This document shows, piece after piece, positions 5,001-52,011 of a stretch of 55,621 bases of DNA. This DNA is from a virus, in IMG/VR virus record IMGVR_UViG_3300028897_000188, positions 1-55,621 of that record. The stretch is one strand, 5' to 3'. The notes under the pieces are model-generated. The model saw only the letters and a list, made by a program, of their open reading frames with translations, searched no databases and was not told the origin of the DNA. Both the position numbers and the translations under genes were made by a program. Numbering within the stretch: position 1 is the first letter of the stretch; each line of letters starts with the position of its first letter.

Positions 5001-8000
5001 GTTTCAGAAAATGACTTAACACGAAATAGACTTGCATGTTCAAGATATTCTGGATCACCAATAAAATATTCATCTGGATATAGACCTTTAGAAGCATACG
5101 GAGTATTAATATCTCTACTATAACTTTGTACCCAATCACTAGAAACATAATAAAAACCTGGAGGATCACCAGGAGAACCAAATCTATATTGTGATTCCCA
5201 CTCTGTATTTACATCAACCTGTTCCTCACCATCAATAGTACCAGTAGCTAGCACATCAACCTCATAACGATTGGTTCCTTCTACATTACTCCAAGGATTA
5301 CCAGTATAGTAACCATATTCTTCACCATCTCCCTCTGTATCTCCATACATTCCTTTTAATACGGCAGAACCACCAGGTGTAAATGCCCATCTAAAAATCA
5401 TATAAGTTTGATCTAACCAATGAGCTATATCACGTCTTCTACATGGAAAATCAACATAATCGGTTCCTTTAGCATTTAAAATTTTAGCATAGTCATCCGT
5501 TGCTGGATTCCACACAAATACAGGATCACCCCTATCATTATCATTATGAACAGTTCCATATGGGAAAGCATAAGGATTATCTGGATTAGTTCCTCCCATC
5601 TGGAAGTAAAGTCCTTCAAATGCAAAGCTTGATTCGCTGGAGCTTGAACTTGACGAACTCCCAGAAGAACTACTACTTGAGGAGCTTAGAGAATTGGAGC
5701 TTGACGAAGATGAGCTTGACGAAGACGAAGAATAACTACTTGAGCTTGAGCTTTCTGAGCTTGAGCTTCCTGATTGAGAAGAAGACGAAGAAGATATACA
5801 CCAATCAGCAATCATTATCTCATTTGTTGTATCGTTTATATTACAAGGCCAAGCCTTACATTCTCTTCCATAATATTGTGGACATGCTCTACTCTCGCTA
5901 CTTGAGCTTGAGCTTTCTGAGCTTGATGATTGAGAAAAAGAAAAAGAGCTTGAGGACGAAGAATAACTATAGCTACTTGACGAAGAGCTTAGAGAACTAG
6001 AGCTTGACGATGAGGAGCTTGAACAGCTAACAGCATCATAAGTTACAAAGTCATCCCTCATGCTCAACATTGAAGTTTTTAGAAAACCAGATCCCTTATA
6101 ATCTCTATGATATCTTACCTCATCTATATATCCCTTAAATGGTCTACCAGCAAGATATCCATATTGGCCTATAAGCCCACCATCTCCACGTCTTCCGATT
6201 GTTCCTGATCTTAATTGTCCTTCCGTAATAAGTAAATTCTCAGCACGATTCTGATATGAACGTACTCTACCTCCACTTCCCCAAGCCATTGCTACATATG
6301 TCCATTCTTTTCCGTTTGCTCCAGACGGAACTAGAGGTATTTGTTCTCCTGTAGCTCTGTACCATGACCCACCACTATAAATACCTCCTTGAACACCACC
6401 ATTAGAAAGCCCAAGGAATACAGATGACTCACTAGGTATACCAGCGTGATTTACTTTTGCTATATAAGAAGTATTTTGTCCTATAGGTCTTCTGGCTTCA
6501 CACCTTACCCATGCTTCTACACTAACTTGAGTATGACCAAGATAATCCATTCCATCAGAAGAACCAATACCAACATATCCAGGACTATTAGGCCAGCCGT
6601 AAACACTAGTTGATAGAACACCAGTCATGTAAAGACCCTTGCCTGTAAATTGCCATCCCTGACCAGCACTAACACACCAGTTATCTTGATATCTCACACC
6701 TGGAGATATAAACCCACCACAACCAGATGGGCCGAAGTCCATATTTACAGCACTACCTTCCAGATTAGAATATTTAGTACTTTGATATGTTCTATTAATA
6801 AGAGCATTAGGATCATCATGGATCTCTTCCATATGCATAACACAAGCATATGACTCATCCCAAACATTCATTCCAGCACTTGCTACGATTCCTATATTAG
6901 AGAAATCACGTCCATCTCCGCTGACTGGTATTCCAAGAGAACCTACGTAGTCAAAGTTATCTTCTTGATCATTTCCAAAATGTAAAGTGAAATATCTCGT
7001 TCCTCCAGAAATCACTATTGATGGGCCTATATACAGAGTGGCTTCTCCAGCGGAAGGAATCCACCTAGTTATTTCTACATTAAGCTGGCTTCCAATTTCG
7101 TCTGTCACCTTTAGCTTATATCTTTTCTCTCCAAGCTCCGTAAATATATGCGTAAGGTCTGCTCCTGTACTTCCAGAATTATTACTGATCTTTAATGGGA
7201 ATGAGAATGAAGCAGAATCACACTCAATCTTGGAACCACTTACAGAAAATGGTATAGTACATTTCCAAGGTATTCCAGAAGAGCTTGAGGAGCTTGTGCT
7301 TGAAGACGAAGATGATTGAGATGAAGAACTTGACGATGAGGAACTGCTTGAGGAAGAAGACGATGACGAAGAAGAACTGGACGAAGATGACGATGATAAA
7401 CTACTAGATGAGATTGACGATGAGGAAGAGCTAAAAGATGAAGAAGAAAAACTAGCACCAGAAGGAGTAAAAGTAATTATATTATCACGAAGAGTAGCAT
7501 TTGTATGTTTCAACCAGTTAACACTTCTTTCAATGCTTGAAATTCTAACCTCATCTATAGTATGGTATTGTGCTTCACGACCACTAACTACCCTCCAGTT
7601 ACCAATTCCATATCTATCAGCTACACCACGACCTATAACACCGCTAACATTAGCAGATTGACCGTCTAATATACCATTCAAAAAAACTTCTACTGGCCCA
7701 CCAGAAGCCCATCTACCGACCATATAATATTGAGTGTCTATCTGTAAAGTTGTTGCTCCGTTTGCTGTTCCGCTGCCAGTAGGAGTATATTGAAAAAATC
7801 TAGGAGTTCCATTAATATTGACTAAGTTAAAAGAAGAACTGGTAACACTTTCTGGATTCATTACTATTGATCCGTTGTTAGTAGGCATAGAACCACTAGG
7901 AGTTTTAAAGAAAGCTTCAACTGTATTAGCATCCCTACCATCTGGATCAAGTCCTTTGGTTCTTATATATTGACCATCTGGAGAACTACCAAATCTTTGC

Positions 8001-8506
8001 CCCTTACCTAGTAAAGAATCAACCTGAGTAGGATATCCTACTGTTCCTCCACCAAAACCGTGATTTTCATTTTGAGTTGAATCTTTAAATTCATCTGCCG
8101 TTCCGTCACTTGACTCCTTTAGATGGAATACATGAGTAAATCCAGAATCCCAAACGGCTTGAGCCGCACTAGTTCCTACAGTACCTACATATTGAGTATT
8201 ATCTGGTTCACTAGAGTCATAATATAAAGTGAAATCTGCTCCGCTGGCTGGAAGATTAGGAATCTTGGTAAACACCCAAGCCCTTTCATTAATATCATCC
8301 CATACATCTACTTCTATATAAAGTTGATTGAGATTTTTATCTTCTATTTTCATCTTTAAAGAAGACGAACCAATCTTAGTGAAGATATCTGTAAGGTCTT
8401 CTGATGTAAGTCCAGATGCAGAAGCAAGAGGAATCATAACAGGGAAATCTGTTAAGTCTATTCCTGCTCCTGAGACATTAAATGTTATGTAATTATTCCA
8501 AGCCAT
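2039..8506 (-). CDS. Giant multidomain tail adhesin with DUF2341/LamG-like modules and polyserine linkers
   Basis: 2155 residues. The N-terminus (about 1-110) looks like a DUF2341 domain, followed by a concanavalin/LamG-like jelly roll (about 150-340). The pair recurs at about 415-820. Polyserine linkers lie near 352-412, 825-862, 905-957, 1485-1579, 1819-1880 and 2015-2037. A large unrecognised block spans 957-1485. Two tandem paralogous modules close the protein; both contain the motif LDISDRTA. DUF2341 and LamG folds commonly bind carbohydrate, so a glycan-binding tail surface protein is likely. The start ATG lacks a clear Shine-Dalgarno site: the preceding 23 nt after the upstream stop are almost all A/T. 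It lies between two other adhesin genes in the late tail operon. Confidence 0.85.
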   Translation of the reverse strand: MAWNNYITFNVSGAGIDLTDFPVMIPLASASGLTSEDLTDIFTKIGSSSLKMKIEDKNLNQLYIEVDVWDDINERAWVFTKIPNLPASGADFTLYYDSSEPDNTQYVGTVGTSAAQAVWDSGFTHVFHLKESSDGTADEFKDSTQNENHGFGGGTVGYPTQVDSLLGKGQRFGSSPDGQYIRTKGLDPDGRDANTVEAFFKTPSGSMPTNNGSIVMNPESVTSSSFNLVNINGTPRFFQYTPTGSGTANGATTLQIDTQYYMVGRWASGGPVEVFLNGILDGQSANVSGVIGRGVADRYGIGNWRVVSGREAQYHTIDEVRISSIERSVNWLKHTNATLRDNIITFTPSGASFSSSSFSSSSSSISSSSLSSSSSSSSSSSSSSSSSSSSSSSSSSQSSSSSSTSSSSSSGIPWKCTIPFSVSGSKIECDSASFSFPLKISNNSGSTGADLTHIFTELGEKRYKLKVTDEIGSQLNVEITRWIPSAGEATLYIGPSIVISGGTRYFTLHFGNDQEDNFDYVGSLGIPVSGDGRDFSNIGIVASAGMNVWDESYACVMHMEEIHDDPNALINRTYQSTKYSNLEGSAVNMDFGPSGCGGFISPGVRYQDNWCVSAGQGWQFTGKGLYMTGVLSTSVYGWPNSPGYVGIGSSDGMDYLGHTQVSVEAWVRCEARRPIGQNTSYIAKVNHAGIPSESSVFLGLSNGGVQGGIYSGGSWYRATGEQIPLVPSGANGKEWTYVAMAWGSGGRVRSYQNRAENLLITEGQLRSGTIGRRGDGGLIGQYGYLAGRPFKGYIDEVRYHRDYKGSGFLKTSMLSMRDDFVTYDAVSCSSSSSSSSSSLSSSSSSYSYSSSSSSFSFSQSSSSESSSSSSESRACPQYYGRECKAWPCNINDTTNEIMIADWCISSSSSSQSGSSSSESSSSSSYSSSSSSSSSSSSNSLSSSSSSSSGSSSSSSSSESSFAFEGLYFQMGGTNPDNPYAFPYGTVHNDNDRGDPVFVWNPATDDYAKILNAKGTDYVDFPCRRRDIAHWLDQTYMIFRWAFTPGGSAVLKGMYGDTEGDGEEYGYYTGNPWSNVEGTNRYEVDVLATGTIDGEEQVDVNTEWESQYRFGSPGDPPGFYYVSSDWVQSYSRDINTPYASKGLYPDEYFIGDPEYLEHASLFRVKSFSETIWQYKFWGNYAAIDRDPQPDCTKYDYTYSAVATFNLDLELVTPIGSEFLTGHSSGYFGGRGLYYEYSNCPGDAYARTLDPGAATWRTIGNIFDQPLQKGLGWARAATGRFKNFMHQVYVVIASRADTGYNFSGRAPNQFITYRHSDYILGYPAPSIMWSTCQYYYGSGWGLISNSVASCETVLGIPYPEYWEPFEKASPDHDWISGFWVAGTYYFTPSATSQVEDFTTAGWLEPDIEVIAGANSTGAIQASAVDPHTQSRSTNLENAIRAMIDLYYDSDETDIPTTIEPYLPLPFWRAPRENISLQSMYRKRISPESYSSSSASSSSTSSSSESSSSSSSSVSSSSSSRSSSSESSSSRSSSSRSSESWKSSVSYLSSSSSSSASESSSSESMSSSSSSISSSSSSFSSNCFTEDFVGVSGAQPTPFNIRENENDWNLSYLDGTPSGGLVVDYVNVSGGHAFNLNNRYAYRSEIPGVSGTIFDVVLDWSTSYQYPANADYTWISFLCISESPTDQLDNFKNIFGVYLAPGAGGSKYVRYYLRRQLGDVGGAFPDSWLSYPSYDSGNYSGKIRLRSEQIGPNSLNVRFYYKTDGVHDSWVQMYTQSYSTSASHYLHFGFGMGNVTDSVGTRGHISKIKGLSVIEAVNVSCQSSSSSSRSSSSSSISSISSSSSSLSFSSSSLSSSSSSVSSSSSSSSSSLSSSSSTSSSSSSQIPGACDNYFDDTFWSPHDIQYGQWDAVNQEWDKTTSRTIWLDADAGWKEGYTSNFIVVTLDNILPVSAGYGNFILVLNAANGSVNTGYQTVSAGQQMVLDISDRTADFNYISVQRQFGEDEAYSITNIRFCESSYSSSSTSQSSSSFSGSSSSSSSSGVGCDTYFEYGTYWDLVFSPPLLGSWDAVNQEWDSSGTGSLWLAPSAGTTWNVGYTNNYLKLTLNNITGGSGSFNISLTGGNGAKNFLGVAISDGVPISLDISDRTAPYSQLVLSVL

Positions 8507-8527
8507 ATTATTAATATTTATCTAAAT

Positions 8528-11500
8528 TTAGATTACATCTATCTCAAATGTCATTTCTGTTGCTCTACTCCAACGGATTCTCAACGCTCCTGAAGTTCCA
8601 TAGAAAGGAAGTACATTTGGATCAGGATTAGCATTAGTAAAGTCATATGTTTCTCTAAACATAAATTTAGCATATCCAGTTGGTAGAGACTGTCCTATAA
8701 TTGATTGTAAGTATGATATTCCAGCCCCTCCAAAATCAAAAGTAAACGCAGCGGCCCCATCTGGAAACTGACCAGAATTATCTATTTGAATTCCTGTTCC
8801 TGCATCCCAATCTGCTATCGTAGGTGGAACGGCATGATTTGATATCTCCATATACATCCCCTCTGTATATGGTGGACTTATTGAATCATCAGGGAAAAAG
8901 GCAACCGATGCACCAACAATTATCATCCTTGCGGCTACTACCGTACTAGCTGACGGTATACCAGATACATTATAAGTAACAACCGATCTCTCTAGTTCCC
9001 AATCAGAAGAATCTCTGCCTATATATCCTGTAATATATGTAGGAGAAAGAAATATACCTCCTGCTGTGGGAGAGTTCCTAACACCATCCCACGTTGCCGC
9101 ACTAAAACCTAGCGCTGCGCTTGATCCTGCTATTGGTGCGCTAAATGAAAATGTTGTAGCACTAGCAGAAGAACTTGACTCTGACGAAGAGCTTAGTGAA
9201 CTGGAACTTGAATAACTGGAGCTTGACGAATTAGAAGAACTAGATGAGGAGCTACTAAAACAGCTTAAACAAGCAGAAGTAGGTGGAGTCAAAAATCTAA
9301 AATTATAAAAAGCCATATCCAAGTCTGTTCCATTTGGATGCAATGTTGATGCTCTAAGCATTACTCTTATATCTTCTCCACTTGTGCTTCCAGCCCATTC
9401 CCATCTTAATTGTGAAAAATCAAAATGGTAGAAGTATAAAGTATTACCAGTTCCAGGCTTCACAATTCTGAATCTACCATTGACAGGATAGTTATTCGGA
9501 GAAGTTGAGCCATAATCAAAAACAGTTTCAGATCCACCAAGAGTTGTTCTTACTTGAAGTTGATTTCTATTTGTACCGACATTATACGTATTCCTTACTG
9601 TAATAGGATTATCATTAGCGGCTGGTAAAACAGGATGCAAACCAAATTCAAAATATGCTCCTGCTCCAACTACAGAGTAAGTTTCAATTGTCCAATCAAT
9701 AGATATATCGAAAGGACAATTATTAGGAATAGTCCATTCACTTTGAATTTCAGAGCTACGTGTTACTCCTGCTACGGCTCCGAAATTATCATATCTGTAG
9801 AAGTTAAGCTGACCAAATCCACTAGGAGCCGTAGGTGGTGGTGAATCAAAGTATGTAGCTGGTGAACCTCCCATATAATTATTTTGATTAAGAATTACTC
9901 CCCAACGATGATAGTCTGGATCGCCACCTGATATATCTAGTAAATCTTCCGCACAATTAGAACTGTAAGAGCTTGAGATACTTGAGGAGCTTGAGCTTGA
10001 ACTTGAAGTAGAGCTTGAACTTGACGATGGACAAGGAATCCCACCAGACACATTTACACAAAGGTCTGTAATTGTAGATATATGTCCTCTTACTGAATAG
10101 TTTCCTACATCTGTACCGACATTTCCAGCGGCAAATCCAAAATGTATATACAATGGATTCAATGATACTCCAAGATTATGTAATTCAGGAACACCAACAA
10201 AACCAGAGGGCCAAAATTCTACCCAATCATCGTCATGTCCTAGAAGAGGAGAATTATAATTTTTGTAGTAAAAATGTTCTTCTAATTGAAAATTCCCACC
10301 ACCAAGATCACGTATAATTCCTTTAAGTCTCAACCATCCTTGCCATGCCGCTCCTAAAGTACTAGGCATATAACAAGCAAATACTTCTCCATATCTATCT
10401 GGTGCTACTGGATGTTTTCTCCTATATTGTAAAACTTGTTGTGTATATGCTCCTCCACAATTATCACTAGGAGGAGGATATCCATCAAGACCGAGTTGTG
10501 CATAGAAAGAATTATGTACTCCCCACATTGATTTATGATTAGTAAAGTCATATGGACTTTCAGATAGAGCTAAGAAAGCCACCCAACTAAACGAACCACT
10601 ATTAGGTGAATATTCATAAGTGTTAATCCATTTAAGAGATACATCTACTATATTTCCATCAACTATAGGTATTGCTGTATGATAACTCCATCTATCCCAA
10701 AGTTGTCCATGACCAGCAAATTTCAAATAGGGCCATAAATAATTAGCATGAGGAATTTGTTCTTCTACTGGAAGAATCCCTCCATATTGATCCCATTCAT
10801 TTATTCTTACTTTCGTATAGTCAAGAACATCTCCCTGTAGAACTCCGTTTATAGTTCCAGCAGATGGTACATATCCAGAAGGATATAATATCCCTGCACT
10901 TGGCCCTGCACTAGTTATATACCCACCAGATGGATAATTAGAAAAAGTAAAACAGTTAGTAGTCTCACATCCTAAAGCCAAATTATAGGAAGATGAAGAA
11001 GATTTACTACTACTTGAAACTGATATTGAGCTACTTGAGGAAGATAAACTACTTGAGGAAGATAAACTACTTGAGGAACTTGAAGAACTTGAATATGAAG
11101 AGCTTGACTGACTACTACTACTAGAACTTGACGAAGATGGATGTAACCAGAAATTGACTAGCGGCCCAACTCCACTTGGATATCCAACCAATCCACCAGA
11201 CGGAGTATCTTCAAAGTCATGGAATATAGTCCAAATACTATCTGGACACCCACATTCTCTATGTAGATAAGTCAACGCCCATGCTTCTCCAGCCAATGTA
11301 GCCCATCCATTTACTGGTTGAGCAAATTTCAATTCAATGGTATCGTCATCTATAATACATACATTCTTAGGTTCTATACGTCTTGCTAATGCCGTAGGAT
11401 TTTTACCACAACCAGCACCTTCTAGTGATTCCCATGCCTGAATTACTACATATCTTCCAAGACCATGATTAATAGTCCATGTCTTTGTTGAAGTTTTCTG

Positions 11501-13582
11501 TATATGCAGATAGGTAGCAATACCAGCCGATGGAGTAGGCCCACCAGCCGACAGGAACCTACTTCCTGTAAAGAACGTATTAAAATATCCATTTGAGTCC
11601 AGAGGATATAGAGGAACAGAAGTAGCAATTCGCTCTTCCTTTGCAGGAGGAGCTAAAAATTCGTGATACAGAACATGCTTGTTAACTGGTCTTACATATT
11701 CCCAGTTTCGTATTAACTCATCTGCTAAAAATTTATTAATGATAAAATCGTCACCAGCAAATAACTCATTAAAAGGCTCAACATCAATCAGCGGCTCCGT
11801 ATTCAGATCCAATTCTACTATGTAATGAGGAGTTATTACTGGATGTCCAGTAGGCCCGACTCCTGTAGTCAAACGTGAAAAATCAACATGCTGTCTGAAA
11901 ACAGTTCCGAAGAACTGACCATCCAATCCGTTAGTGAATGAGTTCATTGCATGGAGTACAGTATAGTCAGGACACGCTTGTAATGTATGAGTAATTATCT
12001 CCGTTAGTTTCTCTTCTCTTCTCTTACCGTCATAAATATAAACTTCTAAAGTAGGAGAACCAGCGGAAGGACATGTCCTGTCTACTCCTATTCTATACCG
12101 TTTGCTGACTTCATAATCAGTCTTGGTTCCTATAGTAGAGTAAATAGTTGCTCCGTATTTCTCATATACAGCAAATCGTCTTTGTGTTCCTACCTTTTCC
12201 ATTGCCACACCAATCCAGTCATTAGGTGTGGTTCCGAATCCATAGACATCTTGACTGACACCATAGAAGATAAAGCTACAGTCTGTAACTGTTTTCGGAG
12301 ACATGGCAACTCCAGCACAATGCTCAAAGTCTCCAGAAAAACTTTGACCAGATAGAGTCAATGTCCTAGTCAAAGTATCAACGGTATCATATGCGGAGAT
12401 TCCTATAGAATATGTTCTGATATCAGTTACAAAAGAATTTAATTCTCTTGGATCATAACAAAGGAAACTTTCAGGTGGCCCACAATCCCATATTTCAGCG
12501 GTACAATTACCACTTGGAGCTTCCGTAGCGTGAACTGGATAGAAAGCAGGATTGAATTGAGAATACCATAAATCTCCTCCTCCACCAGATGGAAACTGAC
12601 CGTAGAATTCCAGCCAATTGTAGTCATTGATAGGATATATTTCTGGCCCAAAATAACTTCTTACTCCAGTAGGAAGTCCAGGGTGAAAGCCTGGAAATCT
12701 GTCATAACTCGCTTCATTCTTTAAAGTGATTCCATCCAGTTCAAATAATTCAGGCTGACACCACTCATCCCACCGTTCATAGACATTCATTACATTTTCA
12801 GAATTTGATAGATACAGTTTGTAGATAATATACAGAGCATTGTAAGCACCAATGCGCTTTAAGAAGTAAATCAGATTTTCTACCCATTCTCGGATATTCA
12901 ATTCTGACATCTCTTCTGCTATTTCTATTCCGTATATCTGAGCAATGTACCCTAACCACTTCAAGTCAATTTCTCTAGCGTCCATTAAAGACCATAGAGT
13001 TTTCAACATTGTATAAGGTTCATGGTGAACTTGATCAAAATAGACTTGTAACCATTCCTTTACATTGGTGGTCTGGTTATGTGCTGGTAAGGCTCTTAAT
13101 GCGTAGTCTTTAAGACCTTCAAATTCTATAGCATAGGTGTTTGAAGATCTACTTACGGGCCAAAGCTTTCCGAAGAAAGCAAATGTTCTTTTTTGATTTA
13201 CATAATTTCTATAGGCTTCATTTTCAGATCTAGCTAGCCAAGCATGGAAGAAGCTATCCTTACGGAAGTACATCTCATTGCCTACACCAACGGCACTTAA
13301 AGCTTCTGTCTCTGTATCTGTACGATACTTCTTGAAGTCATCATAGACCCCACGATACTCCATCTTGAAGCGATTACCATCTATTTCTTTAATGAGAAAC
13401 TTATGACCCACAAATCCTTTGGTAGCATCATTCTCATAGAGAACAGTAAACGCTCCTCCATCCGTCCATATACTTTGCCTTGGGCCAGCTAAGTAAGACA
13501 GTTGAGTACCAGTTTGTCTACTTCCTAAAATATCAAAATATCTTTGAAGTAATTGGTAATTGGGATCTGAAAACTTACCCAT
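8528..13582 (-). CDS. Tail protein I-like N-terminus fused to polyserine-linked adhesin
   Basis: 1684 residues. Residues about 120-260 resemble the P2 gpI / TIGR02242 baseplate-tail protein family, including the stretch around LKWLGYIAQIYGIEI. Near 640-760 are segments seen in phage tail proteins, including a W-x-I-N-H-x-L-G motif. Three polyserine linkers (about 814-866, 1184-1207, 1442-1472) separate beta-rich modules; the module after the first linker resembles a module in the 2155-residue neighbour. The N-terminus probably docks to the baseplate and the rest projects as an adhesin. P2 gpI is only about 180 residues, so this is a large fusion. A purine-rich AGGAGA lies upstream of the ATG. 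Tail location is well supported; ligand unknown. Confidence 0.8.
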   Translation of the reverse strand: MGKFSDPNYQLLQRYFDILGSRQTGTQLSYLAGPRQSIWTDGGAFTVLYENDATKGFVGHKFLIKEIDGNRFKMEYRGVYDDFKKYRTDTETEALSAVGVGNEMYFRKDSFFHAWLARSENEAYRNYVNQKRTFAFFGKLWPVSRSSNTYAIEFEGLKDYALRALPAHNQTTNVKEWLQVYFDQVHHEPYTMLKTLWSLMDAREIDLKWLGYIAQIYGIEIAEEMSELNIREWVENLIYFLKRIGAYNALYIIYKLYLSNSENVMNVYERWDEWCQPELFELDGITLKNEASYDRFPGFHPGLPTGVRSYFGPEIYPINDYNWLEFYGQFPSGGGGDLWYSQFNPAFYPVHATEAPSGNCTAEIWDCGPPESFLCYDPRELNSFVTDIRTYSIGISAYDTVDTLTRTLTLSGQSFSGDFEHCAGVAMSPKTVTDCSFIFYGVSQDVYGFGTTPNDWIGVAMEKVGTQRRFAVYEKYGATIYSTIGTKTDYEVSKRYRIGVDRTCPSAGSPTLEVYIYDGKRREEKLTEIITHTLQACPDYTVLHAMNSFTNGLDGQFFGTVFRQHVDFSRLTTGVGPTGHPVITPHYIVELDLNTEPLIDVEPFNELFAGDDFIINKFLADELIRNWEYVRPVNKHVLYHEFLAPPAKEERIATSVPLYPLDSNGYFNTFFTGSRFLSAGGPTPSAGIATYLHIQKTSTKTWTINHGLGRYVVIQAWESLEGAGCGKNPTALARRIEPKNVCIIDDDTIELKFAQPVNGWATLAGEAWALTYLHRECGCPDSIWTIFHDFEDTPSGGLVGYPSGVGPLVNFWLHPSSSSSSSSSQSSSSYSSSSSSSSSLSSSSSLSSSSSSISVSSSSKSSSSSYNLALGCETTNCFTFSNYPSGGYITSAGPSAGILYPSGYVPSAGTINGVLQGDVLDYTKVRINEWDQYGGILPVEEQIPHANYLWPYLKFAGHGQLWDRWSYHTAIPIVDGNIVDVSLKWINTYEYSPNSGSFSWVAFLALSESPYDFTNHKSMWGVHNSFYAQLGLDGYPPPSDNCGGAYTQQVLQYRRKHPVAPDRYGEVFACYMPSTLGAAWQGWLRLKGIIRDLGGGNFQLEEHFYYKNYNSPLLGHDDDWVEFWPSGFVGVPELHNLGVSLNPLYIHFGFAAGNVGTDVGNYSVRGHISTITDLCVNVSGGIPCPSSSSSSTSSSSSSSSSISSSYSSNCAEDLLDISGGDPDYHRWGVILNQNNYMGGSPATYFDSPPPTAPSGFGQLNFYRYDNFGAVAGVTRSSEIQSEWTIPNNCPFDISIDWTIETYSVVGAGAYFEFGLHPVLPAANDNPITVRNTYNVGTNRNQLQVRTTLGGSETVFDYGSTSPNNYPVNGRFRIVKPGTGNTLYFYHFDFSQLRWEWAGSTSGEDIRVMLRASTLHPNGTDLDMAFYNFRFLTPPTSACLSCFSSSSSSSSNSSSSSYSSSSSLSSSSESSSSASATTFSFSAPIAGSSAALGFSAATWDGVRNSPTAGGIFLSPTYITGYIGRDSSDWELERSVVTYNVSGIPSASTVVAARMIIVGASVAFFPDDSISPPYTEGMYMEISNHAVPPTIADWDAGTGIQIDNSGQFPDGAAAFTFDFGGAGISYLQSIIGQSLPTGYAKFMFRETYDFTNANPDPNVLPFYGTSGALRIRWSRATEMTFEIDVI

Positions 13583-33568: not shown

Positions 33569-35374
33569 TTAAATTTCACATGTACCAGTTCCACAAGATA
33601 GCTCATCGGCATCGGTATGAACCTTACCTTCGTCTATATATTTTTTTACCTCCTTTTTAGATTTGATTGGCACAAGGATTTGTCCGTGTTTACTTCCATC
33701 TACATAAAGCGTCACTCCTTTTAGATCTCTGATATATTCAAGAAGTAAATGACTTAACTGCTCCGCTTTAAATCCTTTCGGAGTATTGATAGTCTTGGAT
33801 ATAGCTCCGTCAACGTACTTCTGAATAATTACCTGAGTTTCAAAATGATCTTCTGGTTTAAGATCTGTGGTATCAACAAACCACTCTGGAGTAGCTTGAT
33901 TGTTTTTGATTATATCTTGATAAATTGGATGAACATAAGCTCTGTCTCCAATTTCATCATGTCTCATATAAGCCTTGAACGGCAAAGGCTCTGCACTACC
34001 TGTCACTTCTGGAATAAGAGAAATAGTGCCTGTAGGAGCAACTGCCATTAAGGATACATTTCTGATTCCATACTTCTTTATATCCATCCTGATACTTGCT
34101 GGAAGACTCCTAATGAAATTAGCCTTGCTAAACATCTTCGTATCGAATTTAGGAAATGCTCCCTTCTCTTCTGCAATTTTTATAGATGCTTCGTAAGCAT
34201 AGTTCCTTATATTTTTGACTAGCTTCTCAATCTCATCAATTGCTTCTGGAGAGCCATACCTTACCTTCTTAGCAAACAGATACTCCGCAAGCCCCATGAA
34301 TCCTAATCCTATACGTCTTCCATCAAAAGCTTTACGCTGGATCTCTGGAATAGTAATAGGATAGCGATTTACCTGAATTATATTATCTAGGAAACGTACA
34401 GCATTGTAGACTGTCTCTTGCATAAGTTTCCAGTTTGTGTTTTTCTTAGAAATGAATCTAGGTAGGACTAATGAACCAAGGCAACATACACCATGAGCAC
34501 CAAGAGGAACCTCCCCACAAGGATTTGTGGAGATGATCGGATCAAAGTAATAGGAGTTATTACTTCTAAGGTTATCCCAGTTAATAAGCCCTGGTTCTGC
34601 ACACTTAACCATGTTGTCTAAAACAAGATCCCAAATTTCTCTGGCTTTAACTGTATCCCAAACCTTATGATGCCATTTCAAATTCCAATTATCGTTTGCT
34701 TCTACGGCATCTAGAAAGTCTTCCATAACTCCTACTGATAAATTGTAATTGCTTAACTCTCCTTTTTTGATTATAGGCTCTATGTAGTCAAAGACATCTG
34801 GATATTCCTTTAGAGCTTCTTGGATCTGTTCCATAGTAGCCGTGAATCTTTGGTTTTTGACTTTGATAAACTTGAAGATATCTGGATGAGAGACAAGCAT
34901 TAGAATTAAACCAGCGGCACGTCTTGATCCACCTGTCTTTATACAATTAGCTCCTGAATTAGCCCATTTAAGAAACGATAGAGGGCCGCTTGACTCTCCT
35001 CCTTTCTGTACTATAGGAGCGGATTCGGGGCGCAGGAAGGAAGCATTACAACCTACTCCTCCTCCTTCTGACCAAAGAATACCGCAATTCTTCTGGAAGT
35101 CTCCTATCTCTTCAATTGAATCTTCAAAAGGCTCTACGTAGCAATTGAAAAGAGTTCCTCTAGGTCTTCCTGAGTTCCTGAGAATCCTACCTCCAGGAAG
35201 AAATAACATATCTTCAATCATTCCACCATATCTTGTTTCCCATTTACTTCTATCTGTGATTTCTACGCTGGCTCCTACACGTCCTACTCTATCCGCTAAC
35301 TCATTCCAGTTCTCTGATTCGTTAAATGCATATCTACTTTTAAATGTATCTTCTGAATTTTTACTCAACGTCAT
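33569..35374 (-). CDS. Class II (B12-dependent) ribonucleoside reductase, NrdJ-like
   Basis: 601 residues. The first catalytic cysteine lies in FNCY at residue 78. The finger loop NPCGE is near 284 and PTGTISLIPEVTGS near 446. The C-terminal pair SCGTGTC matches the redox-active tail. The NrdJ-like sequence, absence of an ATP cone and lack of a nearby small subunit fit the adenosylcobalamin type, which works with or without oxygen. It supplies dNTPs for phage DNA. It relies on host cobalamin. Confidence 0.88.
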   Translation of the reverse strand: MTLSKNSEDTFKSRYAFNESENWNELADRVGRVGASVEITDRSKWETRYGGMIEDMLFLPGGRILRNSGRPRGTLFNCYVEPFEDSIEEIGDFQKNCGILWSEGGGVGCNASFLRPESAPIVQKGGESSGPLSFLKWANSGANCIKTGGSRRAAGLILMLVSHPDIFKFIKVKNQRFTATMEQIQEALKEYPDVFDYIEPIIKKGELSNYNLSVGVMEDFLDAVEANDNWNLKWHHKVWDTVKAREIWDLVLDNMVKCAEPGLINWDNLRSNNSYYFDPIISTNPCGEVPLGAHGVCCLGSLVLPRFISKKNTNWKLMQETVYNAVRFLDNIIQVNRYPITIPEIQRKAFDGRRIGLGFMGLAEYLFAKKVRYGSPEAIDEIEKLVKNIRNYAYEASIKIAEEKGAFPKFDTKMFSKANFIRSLPASIRMDIKKYGIRNVSLMAVAPTGTISLIPEVTGSAEPLPFKAYMRHDEIGDRAYVHPIYQDIIKNNQATPEWFVDTTDLKPEDHFETQVIIQKYVDGAISKTINTPKGFKAEQLSHLLLEYIRDLKGVTLYVDGSKHGQILVPIKSKKEVKKYIDEGKVHTDADELSCGTGTCEI

Positions 35375-38559: not shown

Positions 38560-39204
38560 TTACCTCTCTATTAACTCATCCCATATCTCCTTTCCCTTAG
38601 TAAGATCAAAAGGCATATCTAAGTCATGCAAAAGACTAAACACATCTCCAAAGTTAAAAAGAAAATTCGGAAAGTAAAGTAGTCTATATGGAATTCCAAG
38701 TTCTAATACTCTAGTAAAAAATTCTGCAAAGTCAATCTGATAATCCTCTAACTTGGTTCTTGGTTTGGGATCATCAAAGGATTCTGGAAGAGATTTTCTT
38801 GATCCCATTATATCTTCTATCTTCCTATGGCAGATAATGAGTTTGAAGTCTTGTCTCACGCTCCACCATGCTTTAATAAGCTCTGGATGCCACGTTATTC
38901 GTGGATCTTTGAAGACATCAACTTTGCCTTGTCTCTCATCTTTATCTACTGCATTGATAGCATCTCTATAAGTAAATCCTTTCCAATAATCTCCCCATGC
39001 TTCAACACTCAAATCAATTTCTTTCCCCTCTTTCAAAAATCTATGGTAAAGGTCATGTGTGATAGTATAAGCCGTAGATAGCTCCATTCCAGCCCTTATA
39101 TCAGTATTCCATGATACATTCTTACCTAAACCAAACCCCACTTTTCCTAAATACTTAGTTAAAATACTTGTACCACATCTGCCTAATCCAGTAATTATAA
39201 TCAT
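38560..39204 (-). CDS. Sulfotransferase-like P-loop protein
   Basis: 214 residues. The N-terminus TGLGRCGTSILTKYLGKVGF has the 5'-phosphosulfate-binding loop pattern of sulfotransferases, and FKDPRITW the 3'-phosphate loop. Such enzymes move sulfate from PAPS to sugars or other acceptors. In the same window as a sulfosugar-synthase-like gene it hints at sulfated or sulfonated glycans. The start has GGGAG; a strong hairpin lies just upstream. Confidence 0.7.
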   Translation of the reverse strand: MIIITGLGRCGTSILTKYLGKVGFGLGKNVSWNTDIRAGMELSTAYTITHDLYHRFLKEGKEIDLSVEAWGDYWKGFTYRDAINAVDKDERQGKVDVFKDPRITWHPELIKAWWSVRQDFKLIICHRKIEDIMGSRKSLPESFDDPKPRTKLEDYQIDFAEFFTRVLELGIPYRLLYFPNFLFNFGDVFSLLHDLDMPFDLTKGKEIWDELIER

Positions 39205-45531: not shown

Positions 45532-46443
45532 TCAATCTTCTTCTACATACTCATCAAAGATATCTTCAAAAACATCTTTAGGTACTACAGCCGTTCCTTT
45601 TTGACTAACAACATAAGCGGCACATTTATTAGCTATCTTTGCTGATCTTAACACACTCAATCCTCTTTGTAAACATATTGCCATGATTGCAGTAACGGTA
45701 TCTCCAGCACCAATTACTTCGCTATCGAAAACTTTTTCTCCCTTGATATGTTCCGCAACATCCAATGTTCCATTAGAAGTCCTTTCCATTAGAGTCATAC
45801 CCCTGTCTCCTTTAGTAATAAGGATGTTTTGAGGTAAAGCTGGATGTCTCCATCTCATTTGATGGTATTCGGATTCATTAGGAGTGACTAGTAAAACTCC
45901 TTCTGGATACAAAGCCCAGTTTTCAGGTTTCGGATCAATTATGATTTTATCCTTATAAGCTCCAATCCAATCCATGAATTTTCTACTCACCACTCCTTTA
46001 GCATAATCGGAAACAATTATCATATCATACTCTTCTTCCAGCATTTGATGAGTCAAAGCAATATGAGTGGTCTTCTCATGGTAAAAATCTATTTCTGTTT
46101 TATCTTCAATGTCAATTCTTATCAATTGCTGATTGTCTGCAAATATACGTTCCTTTATAGTAGTAGGATTGTTATTAGGCATGTACCAAAATTTAATTCC
46201 ATCTTCTTTTAAAAGTTTCTGTACTGATTCTCCAGCTTCATCTTGACCGAAAGCACCAGCTATATCTACAGTACCTTTACCAGTTATAGCAGAAATGTTT
46301 CTGGCACAATTAGCGGCTCCTCCCAAAACATCATATTGAAACTTTACATCTACTACTGGAACTGGAGCTTCTGGAGAAATCCTATTTGCTTTACCCACTA
46401 CATATCTGTCAATCATTAAATCACCAATGACTAGAAATTTCAT
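45532..46443 (-). CDS. D-glycero-beta-D-manno-heptose-7-phosphate kinase (HldE domain I / RfaE1-like)
   Basis: About 303 residues from ATG 46443 with GGAGG 5 nt upstream. It starts with FLVIGDLMIDRYVVGKANRI, then EAPVPVV and GGAANCARN. The ribokinase signature near 240 is VIGAGDTVTA. All match RfaE1/HldE-N, which makes heptose-1,7-bisphosphate. The HldE second domain is missing here but an equivalent is encoded on the plus strand at 49149. A hairpin leader may control translation. Confidence 0.85.
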   Translation of the reverse strand: MKFLVIGDLMIDRYVVGKANRISPEAPVPVVDVKFQYDVLGGAANCARNISAITGKGTVDIAGAFGQDEAGESVQKLLKEDGIKFWYMPNNNPTTIKERIFADNQQLIRIDIEDKTEIDFYHEKTTHIALTHQMLEEEYDMIIVSDYAKGVVSRKFMDWIGAYKDKIIIDPKPENWALYPEGVLLVTPNESEYHQMRWRHPALPQNILITKGDRGMTLMERTSNGTLDVAEHIKGEKVFDSEVIGAGDTVTAIMAICLQRGLSVLRSAKIANKCAAYVVSQKGTAVVPKDVFEDIFDEYVEED

Positions 46444-46458
46444 AAGTACCTCCTTGGA

Positions 46459-46522
46459 GCGGAGCACTTACAGGAAAAATTAAAAGGAGAAACAAAAACA
46501 AAAAAACCTGTAAGCACTCCGC
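46459..46522 (-). promoter_or_regulatory. Long leader hairpin with possible pseudoknot on the heptose kinase ribosome site
   Basis: GCGGAG-TG-CTTACAGG pairs with CCTGTAAG-TG-CTCCGC around a 32-nt T-rich loop, just after the tRNA-Gly and before the heptose kinase. The loop contains CTCCTT, which can pair with the AAGGAG of the Shine-Dalgarno. Could sequester translation start or mark tRNA processing. Confidence 0.5.
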
Positions 46523-46527
46523 ATATA

Positions 46528-46604
46528 TGGAGCGGTAGACTGGACTTGAACCAGCAACAACCAGCTTGGAAGGCTAGTGTTCTACCAATTTGAACTACTA
46601 CCGC
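46528..46604 (-). tRNA. tRNA-Gly (UCC), CCA encoded
   Basis: Acceptor GCGGTAG/CTACCGC, anticodon loop CTTCCAA (anticodon TCC), T-arm with GTTCAAG and encoded T-CCA. Confidence 0.9.
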
Positions 46605-46673
46605 ATTGAGGAGAGTATAACAGAACCAGAATCAATTGTAAACGTACTTTTTTTGATAAGTAAAAATAATTGG

Positions 46674-46702
46674 TTTACATTCCCTAGTCACTATGTTAGC
46701 AT
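46674..46702 (+). promoter_or_regulatory. Likely promoter of the initiator-like gene
   Basis: TTTACA, 17-nt spacer, TAGCAT; the palindrome ATTCCTTATTAGGAAT follows immediately. Promoter match is moderate. Confidence 0.5.
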
Positions 46703-46718
46703 ATTCCTTATTAGGAAT
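46703..46718 (+). promoter_or_regulatory. Operator-like palindrome ATTCCTTATTAGGAAT
   Basis: It differs by one base from the 16-bp palindromes of the downstream iteron array and sits at the expected transcription start of the neighbouring gene, so the encoded protein may bind both and repress itself. Confidence 0.7.
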
Positions 46719-46737
46719 AATGTGGAGGTATAAAATT

Positions 46738-47262
46738 GTGAGCATAGAACATGAAATCGGAACAGATCCTTTATTTGTAGAACTAGTCAAAGTAACAAAT
46801 CTTTATGAGAATTTCAATTCCCAACATATTCATTCATTAGACATAATCAAAAAAATTGGCAGATATGCAATAATACCTCATTACTTGACAGATTGTTTAA
46901 TGTTAGCATTAGAAGATTCACCAAAAACATGTTGGAAATTGTTCTTATACCTCTATCAACATATTAATGGAAAAGCATTAGATCAAAACGGAACTCCAAA
47001 AACATTCATTAGGGAAGATAAAATAAAAAAAGCTACAGTCTTTATGAAGAAAATTAATTGTAATAGTTCATCTCAATTTTATAAAGCTATTAGAATTTTA
47101 AAAGAGAAAAAAATTATTTACATTAACAATGAAAATATTTTTTTAAATGGATTCCCTTTAACTTGGAATGTAGGGAATGAAATAAGAGAGAGCATAAAAA
47201 AAATTATAGAAGAAGAAATCGAAAAAATCAAAAGCAGAATAACCGAAAAAGAGAGGGCTTGA
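46738..47262 (+). CDS. Winged-helix replication-initiator-like protein (RepL-type candidate)
   Basis: About 174 residues from a GTG with GGAGG 9 nt upstream (the longer ATG frame lacks a ribosome site and covers the operator). The segment PKTCWKLFLYLYQHINGKA ... FYKAIRILKEKKIIYINNENIFLNGFPLTWN resembles plasmid RepL and phage replication winged helices. An AT-rich tract and iterons follow. Likely origin-binding initiator and autorepressor; a pure regulator is possible. Confidence 0.65.
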   Translation: MSIEHEIGTDPLFVELVKVTNLYENFNSQHIHSLDIIKKIGRYAIIPHYLTDCLMLALEDSPKTCWKLFLYLYQHINGKALDQNGTPKTFIREDKIKKATVFMKKINCNSSSQFYKAIRILKEKKIIYINNENIFLNGFPLTWNVGNEIRESIKKIIEEEIEKIKSRITEKERA

Positions 47263-47279
47263 AAAGCCTTCTTCTTTAT
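47255..47279 (+). terminator. Weak hairpin terminator after the initiator-like gene
   Basis: GGGCTT/AAGCCT stem across the stop codon, then TTCTTCTTT. Confidence 0.45.
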
Positions 47280-47377
47280 ATTTCTTATTATTAATTTATA
47301 TTCTTCTATATTATTCTTCTATAGTATTCTTATGGGAACGAGATTTAAAACAAAAATAAATAGTTACAAGATTTTTC
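47272..47377. other. AT-rich unwinding-element-like stretch
   Basis: The first 58 nt are almost only A/T with T-rich pyrimidine runs (TTCTTTATATTTCTTATT), between the initiator-like gene and the iteron array. This matches the usual layout of iteron-controlled origins. Confidence 0.55.
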
Positions 47378-47517
47378 ATTCCTTATAAGGAATAACCATT
47401 CCGTATAAGGAATAACCATTCCGTATAAGGAATCATTCATTCCGTATAAGGAATAACCATTCCGTATAAGGAATGAGCAAACTTGTAAAATGAACACAAT
47501 CATTCCTTATAAGGAAT
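47378..47517. repeat. Six palindromic iterons, ATTCC[GT]TATAAGGAAT
   Basis: Copies at 47378-47393, 47398-47413, 47418-47433, 47439-47454, 47459-47474 and 47502-47517. Spacing is 20, 20, 21, 20 and 43 bp, i.e. about two helical turns, so bound dimers would line up on one face. Copies 1 and 6 have T at the sixth base, the others G. A seventh related copy lies at 46703. Candidate replication origin or operator array. Confidence 0.85.
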
Positions 47518-47529
47518 GGAGGAGGAACT

Positions 47530-47853
47530 ATGAAAAGAGCATTACAAGCAATTTTAATCGCAGGGGAAGAAATGAAGTTTGATGTTTTAGCTAACAGGAA
47601 GAAAATCACAATCAGGGAAGGTCATCGTGATTATACTAAAGGCCCAGTTTTAATAGGTTGTAATCAACTTGACTGGGCTACAATGAGAAACATTGTAGAT
47701 GTTAGATATACTACTTTGGTAGAAGTTACGGAAGAGGAATATAAAGCAGATGGATTTGAGACAAAATCACAAATGCTGGATGGACTCGCTCAATTCTATC
47801 CTCAAATTAACTGGGAAAGTCCTGTAACCGTAATAAGATGGGAGGAAATGTAA
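47530..47853 (+). CDS. ASCH-domain-like protein
   Basis: 107 residues. RKKITIREGHRDYTKGPVLIGC, then VRYTTLVEVTEEEYKADGF and PVTVIRWE fit ASCH/PUA-like proteins, which often bind RNA or modified nucleosides. A GGAGGAGG site follows directly after the last iteron, so it is expressed from the origin region. Confidence 0.65.
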   Translation: MKRALQAILIAGEEMKFDVLANRKKITIREGHRDYTKGPVLIGCNQLDWATMRNIVDVRYTTLVEVTEEEYKADGFETKSQMLDGLAQFYPQINWESPVTVIRWEEM

Positions 47854-48206
47854 TGGATTTTAATGACTACCAAATGAAATGTAGGAAAACTGACGTGTGG
47901 CATGAAGTAGAAAAGGATATTGTCTTACCTCTTGAACCACCTTGGATGTATTACGTCTTGGGTATGGCTGGAGAGATCGGAGAATTTCAAGAGAAAGTAA
48001 AGAAGTTATTCAGAGATAAAAAAGGACATGTTGATTATGAATTCTCTAAAGACATTGCTTATGAGCTTGGAGATGTTCTCTGGTATATGGCTAGATTCTG
48101 TGATGAGTTAGGGATTCCGTTTGATGATATTCCTAAATTAAACGTAGAGAAATTATTCTCACGTAAAGACAGGAACAAACTACAAGGTGACGGAGATAAT
48201 AGATAA
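47853..48206 (+). CDS. MazG-like NTP pyrophosphohydrolase
   Basis: 117 residues from ATG 47853 (overlaps the ASCH stop; GGAGG just upstream). GMAGEIGEFQEKVKKLF and ELGDVLWYMARFC give the paired E-x-x-E and E-x-x-D metal motifs of MazG. It may clear nucleotide alarmones or damaged dNTPs, as in several phages. Confidence 0.85.
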   Translation: MDFNDYQMKCRKTDVWHEVEKDIVLPLEPPWMYYVLGMAGEIGEFQEKVKKLFRDKKGHVDYEFSKDIAYELGDVLWYMARFCDELGIPFDDIPKLNVEKLFSRKDRNKLQGDGDNR

Positions 48207-48313: not shown

Positions 48314-48474
48314 TTATCGAAGTCAAAGAAAATAAAGCCAAGTGTCCTGAGTGTGGTAAATGGAGAGATGTAACTTTCCATGATATCAGGAAACAAAAAG
48401 AATTAAAATGTTGTAAGAACTATGCTTTGTTGGAGGTAAAAAATGTCAAAAATCAAAAAATACAAAAGAAGTAA
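48310..48474 (+). CDS. Small zinc-ribbon-like protein
   Basis: 54 residues; CPECG near residue 12 and CC near 34 could hold a zinc ion. Starts inside the previous stop and overlaps the next gene by 32 nt. Confidence 0.5.
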   Translation: MIIEVKENKAKCPECGKWRDVTFHDIRKQKELKCCKNYALLEVKNVKNQKIQKK

Positions 48475-48901
48475 AGAAGAAGAAAAACAGTTAGGTCAAA
48501 AAGACGCTGGACGCTTTGACGAAGGTAAAGTAAGAATGGATCTGATTCCTGCATGGGCTTTGGAGAAGATTGCGGAAGTATATACATACGGAGCGCAAAA
48601 ATATGACGATAATAATTGGCTTAAAGGAATGAAGTGGAGTAAGGTTTCTGGCCCATTGGAGCGTCACTATAATAAATGGAAAAGAGGAAACATTAAAGAT
48701 GAGGAAAGTAATTGCTACCACCTTGCTATGGTAGCTTGGAACGCAATAGCCTTAATGATATATCAGGAGTTTGGTTTGGGTACGGATGATAGGTGTCCTG
48801 TAGTAATGGATATGTTGGATGATAAACAAAGAAAGAAGATGATTGAACATTGGTTAAAGTGTTCAATGGAAGGAAAACAATATAACGGTCTGGAGGAATA
48901 A
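48443..48901 (+). CDS. dATP/dGTP diphosphohydrolase-like protein (DUF5664)
   Basis: 152 residues. RFDEGKVRMDLIP, EVYTYGAQKYDDNNWLKG, LERHYNKWKRGN and NCYHLAMVAWN follow the DUF5664 pattern of phage MazG-like dATP/dGTP hydrolases. It probably adjusts dNTP pools. It has a GGAGG site. Confidence 0.78.
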   Translation: MSKIKKYKRSKEEEKQLGQKDAGRFDEGKVRMDLIPAWALEKIAEVYTYGAQKYDDNNWLKGMKWSKVSGPLERHYNKWKRGNIKDEESNCYHLAMVAWNAIALMIYQEFGLGTDDRCPVVMDMLDDKQRKKMIEHWLKCSMEGKQYNGLEE

Positions 48902-49152
48902 TGGAATTAACGATTGAAAGACTTCAAGAAGCATATAAAAAAATAAACGGAGTAGAATATGACTTAAACAAAAGATGGGAAGAAGGGATTTCTCACCATC
49001 CTAAAAGTGAAGAGTTGTTTAAAAAGATTCAAGAAGTAGATTTTATTTGGAATGACGATCATTTTTGCTGGAAGTATGGTGGAGATGGAGACAACGGAGA
49101 AATCTTTATGTATGTTTTGGATGTCATATTTGAAGAAGAGGATAAGAAATGA
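48901..49152 (+). CDS. Hypothetical protein
   Basis: 83 residues, acidic, with a helix near the start and WNDDHFCWKYGGDGDNGEIFMY. No family recognised. It overlaps neighbours at TAATG and ATGA and is in the nucleotide/heptose gene run. Confidence 0.6.
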   Translation: MELTIERLQEAYKKINGVEYDLNKRWEEGISHHPKSEELFKKIQEVDFIWNDDHFCWKYGGDGDNGEIFMYVLDVIFEEEDKK

Positions 49153-49943
49153 TTTACTGTTTTGATATAGATGGAACCATATGTACAAAAGCTAGTCATT
49201 ATAAATTTGCTAAACCAATACAACCAATGATAGATAGGATAAACAAGCTGTATGAGAACGGTAATACAATTATTCTGTCTACTGCCAGAGGGAAAGGAAG
49301 CGGAGTGGATTATGAGGAGCTAACCAGACAACAGATTTTTAAATGGAAAGTAAAACATAATGAGATACTTTTCGATAAACCTTCCGCTGACTTCTACGTA
49401 GATGATAAAGCCGTGTTGCCTGAAACACTCTATCTAAAGGAGTACCGTCAAGTATTTACAAACGGATGTTTCGATATAATTCACGCTGGACACATCAAAC
49501 TTCTAAGGGAAGCATCAGAGCTTGGTATTGTAACAGTAGGAGTTAATTCAGATGACTCCGTTAGAAGGATCAAGAGAGAACCAGTTAACAAGCTGGAGGA
49601 TAGGATGGAAGTTCTATCTTCTATAAGATACGTGGATAGAGTTATACCGTTTACTCAGGATACTCCATTTGATTTAGTTATGCAATTACTACCAGATGTG
49701 ATTGTTAAAGGAGCCGATTGGAAAGGTAAGGATGTTAATGAATTTAAGTTTGTAGAGTCTTACGGAGGGAAGGTTCATTTTGTAGAATTGCTTACTGGTT
49801 ATTCAAGTAGCAAAATAATGTCTAGTTGGGAAGATCGCTATACGGAGTGTTTATGTGATTGTGAAAAAGAGATTTGTGGTATTTGTAGCCAGCCGTATTG
49901 TGATCATGTGAATTGTAAATGTAGAGAATGGAACATGAGATAA
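49149..49943 (+). CDS. HAD phosphatase fused to RfaE2/HldE-C-like cytidylyltransferase
   Basis: 264 residues. Residues 1-100 form a HAD domain (CFDIDGT, LSTARG). Residues about 105-235 have FTNGCFDIIHAGH, GVNSDDSVRRIKR and a GYSSSKIM end, matching HldE-C, which makes ADP-heptose. A Cys-rich tail (CLCDCEKEICGICS...) may bind zinc. With the kinase at 45532 it could give the last three ADP-heptose steps. The HAD part resembles capsule phosphatases rather than GmhB, so its step is inferred. Confidence 0.8.
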   Translation: MIYCFDIDGTICTKASHYKFAKPIQPMIDRINKLYENGNTIILSTARGKGSGVDYEELTRQQIFKWKVKHNEILFDKPSADFYVDDKAVLPETLYLKEYRQVFTNGCFDIIHAGHIKLLREASELGIVTVGVNSDDSVRRIKREPVNKLEDRMEVLSSIRYVDRVIPFTQDTPFDLVMQLLPDVIVKGADWKGKDVNEFKFVESYGGKVHFVELLTGYSSSKIMSSWEDRYTECLCDCEKEICGICSQPYCDHVNCKCREWNMR

Positions 49944-50923: not shown

Positions 50924-51158
50924 TTCCTCCGTCTGGTAGGATATCTCTTTGTTCCAATCCTTTTTTATATTCATTTACAATTCGCTCCAAAATGGTTTTA
51001 ACATTTTTTATTTCATAAACGGAGCAATAAAGTTTAATCGGTACAGCTATATGATCCGTATCAACGTCTTCCACATTCTTCAAGACTTTATCTACTAATC
51101 CCATAGCTCTGCTTAATCTTGCGATATCATGTTTTATGGCTTCGTAAACATCATCCAT
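50910..51158 (-). CDS. Hypothetical helical protein
   Basis: 82 residues, helical and amphipathic (MDDVYEAIKHDIARLSRAMGL). Overlaps the upstream gene by 8 nt. No family recognised. Confidence 0.55.
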   Translation of the reverse strand: MDDVYEAIKHDIARLSRAMGLVDKVLKNVEDVDTDHIAVPIKLYCSVYEIKNVKTILERIVNEYKKGLEQRDILPDGGNDGR

Positions 51159-51609
51159 TTTTTTTCTTCTTTTTCACTTTTCGTTTTCTTTGAGGTTTTG
51201 ATAGAATATTTTTTACTTTCGCTTTTTCTATTTCCTCTTCTAAAAGTTTTATGTTTGCATACGGAAAGTATTTATCTGTAGTTATATATTTTTTAAAGAT
51301 TTTTCTAAGCCAATCTCCAAGTCTTGTGGGTATTGTGTTTCTAGGTATTCCTTTAGTTTGTTGTCCTGTTTTTCTTTGAAACGACATATCAAAGACATAA
51401 GAATCTCTTGTAGGAGCCTTGTAGAATTCCTCCACTACTTCTCCATCTATTTTCTTTTTTATTCTGACTTCATCTATATAGGTTCTATTGTAGCATATAA
51501 ACCGATATCCCTTTTGAGGATGAGCGGTAAGCTTGGAGAATGTAATTCTTCCATGCTCTCCCATATTAATAAAGGGAACACCTTTATCGGTATATTCTAA
51601 TGATATCAT
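51151..51609 (-). CDS. Basic hypothetical protein
   Basis: About 152 residues. The start at MISLEYTDKG is preferred because the promoter -10 (51636-51641) lies over the codons of a longer TTG frame; AGGA precedes this ATG. Strand-rich N-terminus and very basic Lys-rich C-terminus (RKRKVKKKKK) suggest nucleic-acid binding. Function unknown. Confidence 0.6.
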   Translation of the reverse strand: MISLEYTDKGVPFINMGEHGRITFSKLTAHPQKGYRFICYNRTYIDEVRIKKKIDGEVVEEFYKAPTRDSYVFDMSFQRKTGQQTKGIPRNTIPTRLGDWLRKIFKKYITTDKYFPYANIKLLEEEIEKAKVKNILSKPQRKRKVKKKKKNG

Positions 51610-51635
51610 ATTTTTTGATCCTAATTTTTTCTTGC

Positions 51636-51664
51636 ATATTATCATAGCCAATTTTGAATGTCAA
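51636..51664 (-). promoter_or_regulatory. Sigma70 promoter, minus strand
   Basis: TTGACA (51659-51664), 17-nt spacer, TAATAT (51636-51641) preceded by TGA. It is back to back with the HU promoter. Confidence 0.8.
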
Positions 51665-51676
51665 CAAAAAAAATTC

Positions 51677-51705
51677 TTGACAGTCTTTTAGATAAATAGT
51701 ATTAG
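51677..51705 (+). promoter_or_regulatory. Sigma70 promoter of the HU gene
   Basis: TTGACA, 17-nt spacer, TATTAG (51700-51705). The divergent pair is only 12 bp apart at the -35 boxes. Confidence 0.8.
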
Positions 51706-51738
51706 AGGGCTACTACTACTTATTTAGGAGAAATTGTT

Positions 51739-52011
51739 ATGAATAAAAAAGAACTAATCAAACGTGTTTCTGATGAAATAGGAGTTATTCAATCAGAGAC
51801 AGCTATCATTGTAGATGCTGTACTGAAAGAAATATATAAAGGAATATTAGAAAACGATAAGGTCACTTTTGAAAATTTCGGAGCTTTCCATAAGAAGGTA
51901 AGAAGAGCAAGGAAAGCCAGCAACCCTAAGACTGGAGCAACCATAGACGTTCCAGCTAAAACGGTTGTGAGTTTTAAAATGTCTAGAAAGCTGAAACAAG
52001 ATCTGAATTAA
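51739..52011 (+). CDS. HU/IHF-family DNA-binding protein
   Basis: 90 residues, the standard length. MNKKELIKRVSDEIG, FENFGAFHKKVRRARKASNPKTGATIDVPAKTVVSF and SRKLKQDLN match HU end to end, including the N-P-x-T-G beta-arm tip. It bends and packs phage DNA and may assist origin or transposition-like functions. AGGAG site present. Confidence 0.92.
   Translation: MNKKELIKRVSDEIGVIQSETAIIVDAVLKEIYKGILENDKVTFENFGAFHKKVRRARKASNPKTGATIDVPAKTVVSFKMSRKLKQDLN

Follow-up and report, generated by a model that had tools for sequence, protein, structure and literature searches.

In phage lambda, the replication origin lies inside gene O and carries four 18-bp iterons (at 39034, 39054, 39078 and 39101), imperfect palindromes of the form TCCCT...AGGGA spaced 20, 24 and 23 bp apart. 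Dimers of the initiator bind the iterons of lambdoid origins; in Stx phages, O dimers occupy six of them next to an AT-rich tract (PMC7466680). RepA_N initiators, as in the phage satellite PLE, are dedicated proteins that bind semi-palindromic repeated sites (PMC7145576). In T4, three active origins lie near strand switches, and no role has been proven for the evenly spaced repeats of oriE, which have been called iterons (PMC3016281). At oriE, direct repeats recur every 24 nt within gene 5, and the repEA and repEB genes of this origin are tiny antisense ORFs. At T4 79402-79569 (locus L125, 2903-3070) the repeats keep a 24-nt in-frame period within gene 5, a pattern suggesting that they may be coding repeats.

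We analyzed a stretch of viral DNA of 55,621 nucleotides (the window) in which the T4-type replication genes mentioned in a preliminary description were confirmed by PHROG family matches to the large and small clamp-loader subunits and the sliding clamp, with further matches to a primase and an exonuclease. The window also contains six short palindromes downstream of a gene for a 174-aa protein. Like the lambdoid ori/O system, with its four to six imperfectly palindromic sites of ∼18 bp, AT-rich neighbor and, in lambda, 20–24 bp spacing, this locus combines regularly spaced sites with AT-rich DNA; in lambda, however, gene O contains the iterons and its product belongs to a defined family, whereas the sites in the window lie downstream of an orphan gene and have an extra copy at its promoter. 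Iteron plasmids and phage-satellite replicons share the semi-palindromic repeated sites, but the window protein has no match to RepA_N, Rep_3 or RepL by Pfam, nor to RepL by hhalign. T4 oriE, likewise from a T4-type phage, has regularly spaced repeats close to a strand switch (PMC3016281), so the earlier statement that the layout is unusual for such a phage holds only in part; the oriE repeats are within gene 5, whereas the palindromes of the window are intergenic.

The palindrome array and its flanking DNA

The array and the elements next to it are as follows.

47274-47377, no strand: AT-rich tract preceding the array, ∼72–82% A+T; candidate unwinding element and/or promoter region
47364-47370, no strand: TTACAAG, inverted heptamer pair around sites 1–5, left arm
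47378-47393, no strand: site 1, ATTCCTTATAAGGAAT, perfect palindrome
47398-47413, no strand: site 2, ATTCCGTATAAGGAAT
47418-47433, no strand: site 3, ATTCCGTATAAGGAAT
47439-47454, no strand: site 4, ATTCCGTATAAGGAAT
47459-47474, no strand: site 5, ATTCCGTATAAGGAAT
47482-47488, no strand: CTTGTAA, right arm of the inverted heptamer pair
47502-47517, no strand: site 6, ATTCCTTATAAGGAAT, perfect palindrome, 43 bp after site 5

The six 16-bp palindromes of the preliminary description are real and all lie at 47378-47517, with the consensus ATTCC[T/G]TATAAGGAAT. Successive spacings are 20, 20, 21, 20 and 43 bp; the 20–21 bp reported earlier thus describes four of the gaps and not the fifth, which amounts to about two periods. 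A common helical phase was found for the array sites at ∼10.3 bp per turn (coherence 0.93). Symmetry is perfect at the outer sites (1 and 6), and the middle four (2–5) share one asymmetric G. When at most one mismatch was allowed, the only matches to the pattern in the whole 55.6 kb window were seven sites, the six of the array and one at 46703, and a reversed control pattern gave zero matches there at the same stringency. At up to three mismatches there were 24 strand-matches against 13.4 expected, a count that none of 100 shuffles attained. The restriction of the seven copies to this locus, common to the gene promoter and the array, supports the reading of the array as an origin.

The AT-rich tract described earlier was also borne out, as the flank of the array is among the most A+T-rich DNA of the window. 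The 80-bp stretches near 47041-47155 (within the 3′ end of the 174-aa gene) and 47271-47365 (immediately before the array) have some of the highest A+T contents in the window, the other main place of comparable content being at ∼20440. Iteron-type origins are characterized by a short site repeated at regular intervals, an adjacent AT-rich unwinding tract and a cognate initiator gene of a recognized Rep/O family; the first is present in the array and the second is present when judged solely by A+T content. The likeness to the spaced imperfect palindromes of lambda and to the six iterons beside an AT-rich tract in Stx phages (PMC7466680) further supports an origin.

The array is located at the main divergent strand switch of the window, which also argues for an origin since three active T4 origins are near such switches (PMC3016281). 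The cumulative GC skew turns at 46–47 kb, and the coding direction turns at the same place. We rejected the GC-skew minimum as evidence for an origin because in a related phage (G003) the convincing minority-strand genes keep a normal GC3 skew, the lower pooled value coming from doubtful ORFs, and we therefore read the skew as following the coding strand; the window itself has only three such genes for this test. The skew is hence silent on replication, which weighs against the origin reading.

The 174-residue protein and the palindrome at its predicted promoter

The gene upstream of the array has the following features.

46614-46642, minus strand: predicted host-type promoter, TTTACA-17-TATACT, TG-extended (consensus scan 10/12)
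46674-46702, plus strand: predicted host-type promoter of the 174-aa gene, TTTACA-17-TAGCAT (consensus scan 9/12)
46703-46718, no strand: palindrome ATTCCTTATTAGGAAT, candidate auto-operator, directly 3′ of the predicted −10 box
46724-46729: Shine-Dalgarno sequence GGAGGT of the 174-aa gene, eight bases upstream of the start
46738-47262, plus strand: gene of the 174-aa protein, GTG start; orphan, with a possible HTH plus wing at about residues 93–136
47251-47273, plus strand: intrinsic-terminator-like hairpin closing the transcript of the 174-aa gene

The matching palindrome claimed for the promoter of this gene was found at 46703-46718, adjoining the predicted −10 box (46697-46702). Because the predicted promoter ends immediately upstream, the palindrome probably lies over the transcription start. 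An autoregulated DNA-binding protein has its own site overlapping its own promoter, and this is the arrangement seen here with a consensus-predicted promoter and a candidate site. The predicted promoter at 46642-46614 fires leftwards, toward tRNA-Gly, a PfkB-type kinase and the clamp-loader genes, and is divergent from that of the 174-aa gene. Between tRNA-Gly and the start of the PfkB-kinase gene on the left strand, 46456-46530 is a long inverted repeat that could form a hairpin with a pyrimidine-rich loop.

The 174-aa protein gave zero matches in Pfam, PHROGs and NCBIfam (in Pfam, 0 families at E≤1), so that by these three collections the gene is not a cognate initiator gene of a recognized Rep/O family. 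A PDB sequence search returned nothing significant, known phages gave matches at chance level only, and no homologue was found in plasmids, GTDB genome contigs or 13 related contigs; phmmer without filters against the ORFs of the fetched loci likewise gave chance-level matches only. In IMG/VR the sole counterpart is on a 99.97%-identical contig, which is the same phage and therefore provides no independent variation. A single-sequence AlphaFold model was poor (pLDDT 40); its helices at 93–105 and 111–123 and strands at 127–130 and 133–136 are compatible with a possible HTH plus wing at about residues 93–136. RepL (PF05732), which the protein resembles by eye, was rejected after an hhalign profile comparison with a 12-member RepL alignment, in which it scored 12–13 and shuffled copies had a mean of 12.9 and a maximum of 20.4. 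For lambda O (Phage_rep_O), the protein likewise had no Pfam match.

The label of a winged-helix initiator-like protein was therefore not confirmed: no family matched, the RepL score equaled that of shuffled sequences and the model had a pLDDT of 40, so that "initiator-like" describes the layout and a weak secondary-structure pattern rather than homology. We conclude that the protein is an orphan that probably binds DNA, as suggested by the layout only. Its lack of an initiator family match counts against the origin reading, and an array that would work like those of the lambdoid group, if it is an origin, departs from that group at the initiator family. Common to both leading readings below is binding of the protein to the palindrome and repression of its own promoter, which we consider quite probable.

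A small protein gene whose promoter carries a site, with tandem sites nearby, would also fit a partition-type centromere, at which the protein would be a self-regulating adaptor of the TubR/ParR kind and the array would maintain the phage genome as a plasmid. We regard this as very improbable, since such systems have an adjacent partner NTPase and no ParA, ParM or TubZ was found among the neighboring proteins scanned, and since the visible genome consists of T4-like replication genes and tail genes.

Palindromic arrays in related phages

Related contigs were found by clamp-loader searches, and pieces of eleven were scanned for clustered repeated 14-mers, in addition to an earlier scan of three. 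Intergenic arrays were few across the scanned contigs. Palindromic arrays of other sequences were found in three distant relatives with the clamp-loader module (G208, G002 and G003). In G208 (IMGVR_UViG_3300035158_000869), six palindromes of the GTAATT-NN-AATTAC type lie at 34943-35085 (L132 15143-15285) with spacings of 20, 24, 24, 24 and 37, the first and last copies being the two most symmetric. This array resembles that of the window in its six palindromes, similar spacing, symmetric ends, strand switch and accompanying clamp-loader module, but it differs in the palindrome itself, in lying in a syntenic, mostly non-coding region and in having no neighboring gene with a matching promoter site. 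Its design is almost that of the window and is the closest architectural match. G002 has four copies of the CTATGCCATTATGGCATAG type inside nested inverted repeats, and G003 (L025 1200-1500) has four TACAAC-AAAA-GTTGTA-like sites interleaved with several TTTACA-TATAAT-like promoter sequences. By divergence score, the G208 array is near the top of its contig; the values at the G002 and G003 arrays are less extreme, a stronger switch being located at ∼116 kb in G003.

The three arrays are in a mostly non-coding region of 2.5–3.5 kb. A small "KAGR" gene borders it on one side and a J-domain-like gene on the other, followed by a DUF932 gene; G206 has the same gene order and other repeats. These flanking genes point outward from the non-coding region on both sides. 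In four relatives, the protein beside the origin-like region has a weak DnaJ-type match with an HPD motif (e.g. L132 17325-18047). The G002 region (L039 8600-9900; contig 48.2–49.5 kb) comprises ∼3 kb of non-coding DNA with four palindromes of 19–23 bp at a strand switch and nested inverted repeats of up to 66 nt with 76% complementarity; it has the appearance of an origin or control hub in the related phage.

Comparable arrays in strand-switch regions of related phages support an origin or hub role for the array of the window. The KAGR, J-domain-like and DUF932 genes are absent from the window. In G002 the block is flanked by HU and a homologue of the gene at 51151-51651, which in the window are adjacent, divergent and 87 bp apart (51651-51739); the block is therefore missing at its expected place, and the array is ∼4.2 kb away. 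This suggests an apparent loss or relocation of the non-coding origin-like block in the lineage of the window. The window is also only part of a genome whose unsequenced remainder could hold the usual origin-like block, which weighs against an origin at the array.

The 174-aa gene, the array and the following operon are absent from all relatives examined, and so may be accessory cargo, a further point against the origin reading. Collection searches for matching half-sites with identical spacing returned only the same phage and apparently unrelated matches; L009, with one 18-mer match, was dismissed as a relative since it looks unrelated and aligns with the window over short matches only. In the relatives' arrays, no adjacent gene carrying the same palindrome was found. 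This counts against the window array as an origin and fits the alternative that another protein, of host or phage, binds the array and the 174-aa gene is a mere neighbor sharing the operator, as does the absence of the 174-aa protein from any recognized DNA-binding family. Since, within the 55.6 kb, the palindrome recurs outside the array only at the predicted transcription start of that very gene, we find this alternative improbable.

Possible replication origin or control of the downstream operon

Beyond the array are three genes for which a second role of the palindromes has to be considered.

47530-47853, plus strand: ASCH-domain protein, first gene past the array (Pfam PF04266, E=1.4e-7)
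47838-48206, plus strand: MazG-like pyrophosphohydrolase
48443-48901, plus strand: dATP/dGTP diphosphohydrolase-like protein (PF18909, E=2.6e-27)

The array most likely serves either to start replication or as a control switch with multiple sites. The origin-plus-autoregulation layout put forward in the preliminary description is real and resembles an iteron origin, but initiator homology is missing and an operator reading fits nearly equally well. For the latter, the 174-aa protein would be a local regulator without a replication role. It would repress itself through site 46703 and control the ASCH-MazG-dNTP hydrolase operon from the six sites in the operon's leader or promoter, which it would coat or use as a roadblock. 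The operon starts 13 nt past the last site, and site 6 ends one base before the ASCH Shine-Dalgarno sequence (47518-47526), an operator-like placement that speaks against an origin. The terminator-like hairpin at 47251-47273 implies that transcription of the ASCH gene requires a separate promoter within or next to the array. The regulator gene adjoins the operon it would regulate, and the whole 45.5–49.9 kb segment is lineage-specific, given that none of its genes has a counterpart in G002-G004. Against such a switch, a consensus scan showed no good host-type promoter inside the array, and the relatives' arrays occupy a mostly non-coding strand-switch region, in some with large inverted repeats. 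Six in-phase sites are also many for a local operator. We regard the operator switch as a realistic possibility that falls well short of even.

An origin is slightly more likely than a set of operators controlling the ASCH/MazG/dNTP-hydrolase operon, in view of the six in-phase sites, the AT-rich flank, the strand-switch arrays of the relatives and the lack of a good promoter inside the array. The 174-aa gene would be expressed early from its host-type promoter, and its product would bind the 16-bp palindrome as a dimer. One dimer at the promoter site would give negative autoregulation, whereas in-phase dimers on one helix face of the six-site array would form a compact nucleoprotein complex. 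This complex may strain the adjoining AT-rich DNA and so mark a replication start, as lambda O does on its iterons. We hold this lambda-O-like combination of an autoregulated DNA-binding protein and an origin array tentatively, at a little under an even chance. A more far-reaching proposal, which we think unlikely, is that the lineage swapped the ancestral origin block of four relatives (KAGR, non-coding repeats, J-domain-like, DUF932) for a self-contained origin module with a new family of autoregulated initiator; fast-changing palindromic origin arrays would then be the rule in this T4-like phage group.

The compact array, its candidate dedicated binder and the relatives' arrays offer a protein and its DNA target with which protein-marked origins, as distinct from the R-loop type, could be tested directly in T4-like phages; alternatively, the array would clearly exemplify a phage switch in which six operators act on nucleotide-hydrolase genes.

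Other genes of the window include a PfkB-family kinase (45532-46467) and a HAD-like plus cytidylyltransferase-like protein (49149-49943), which are linked through PHROGs to heptose-phosphate enzymes and may represent part of an ADP-heptose-type sugar pathway carried by the phage. At 2039-13582, two very large tail-region proteins have long serine runs separating their domains.
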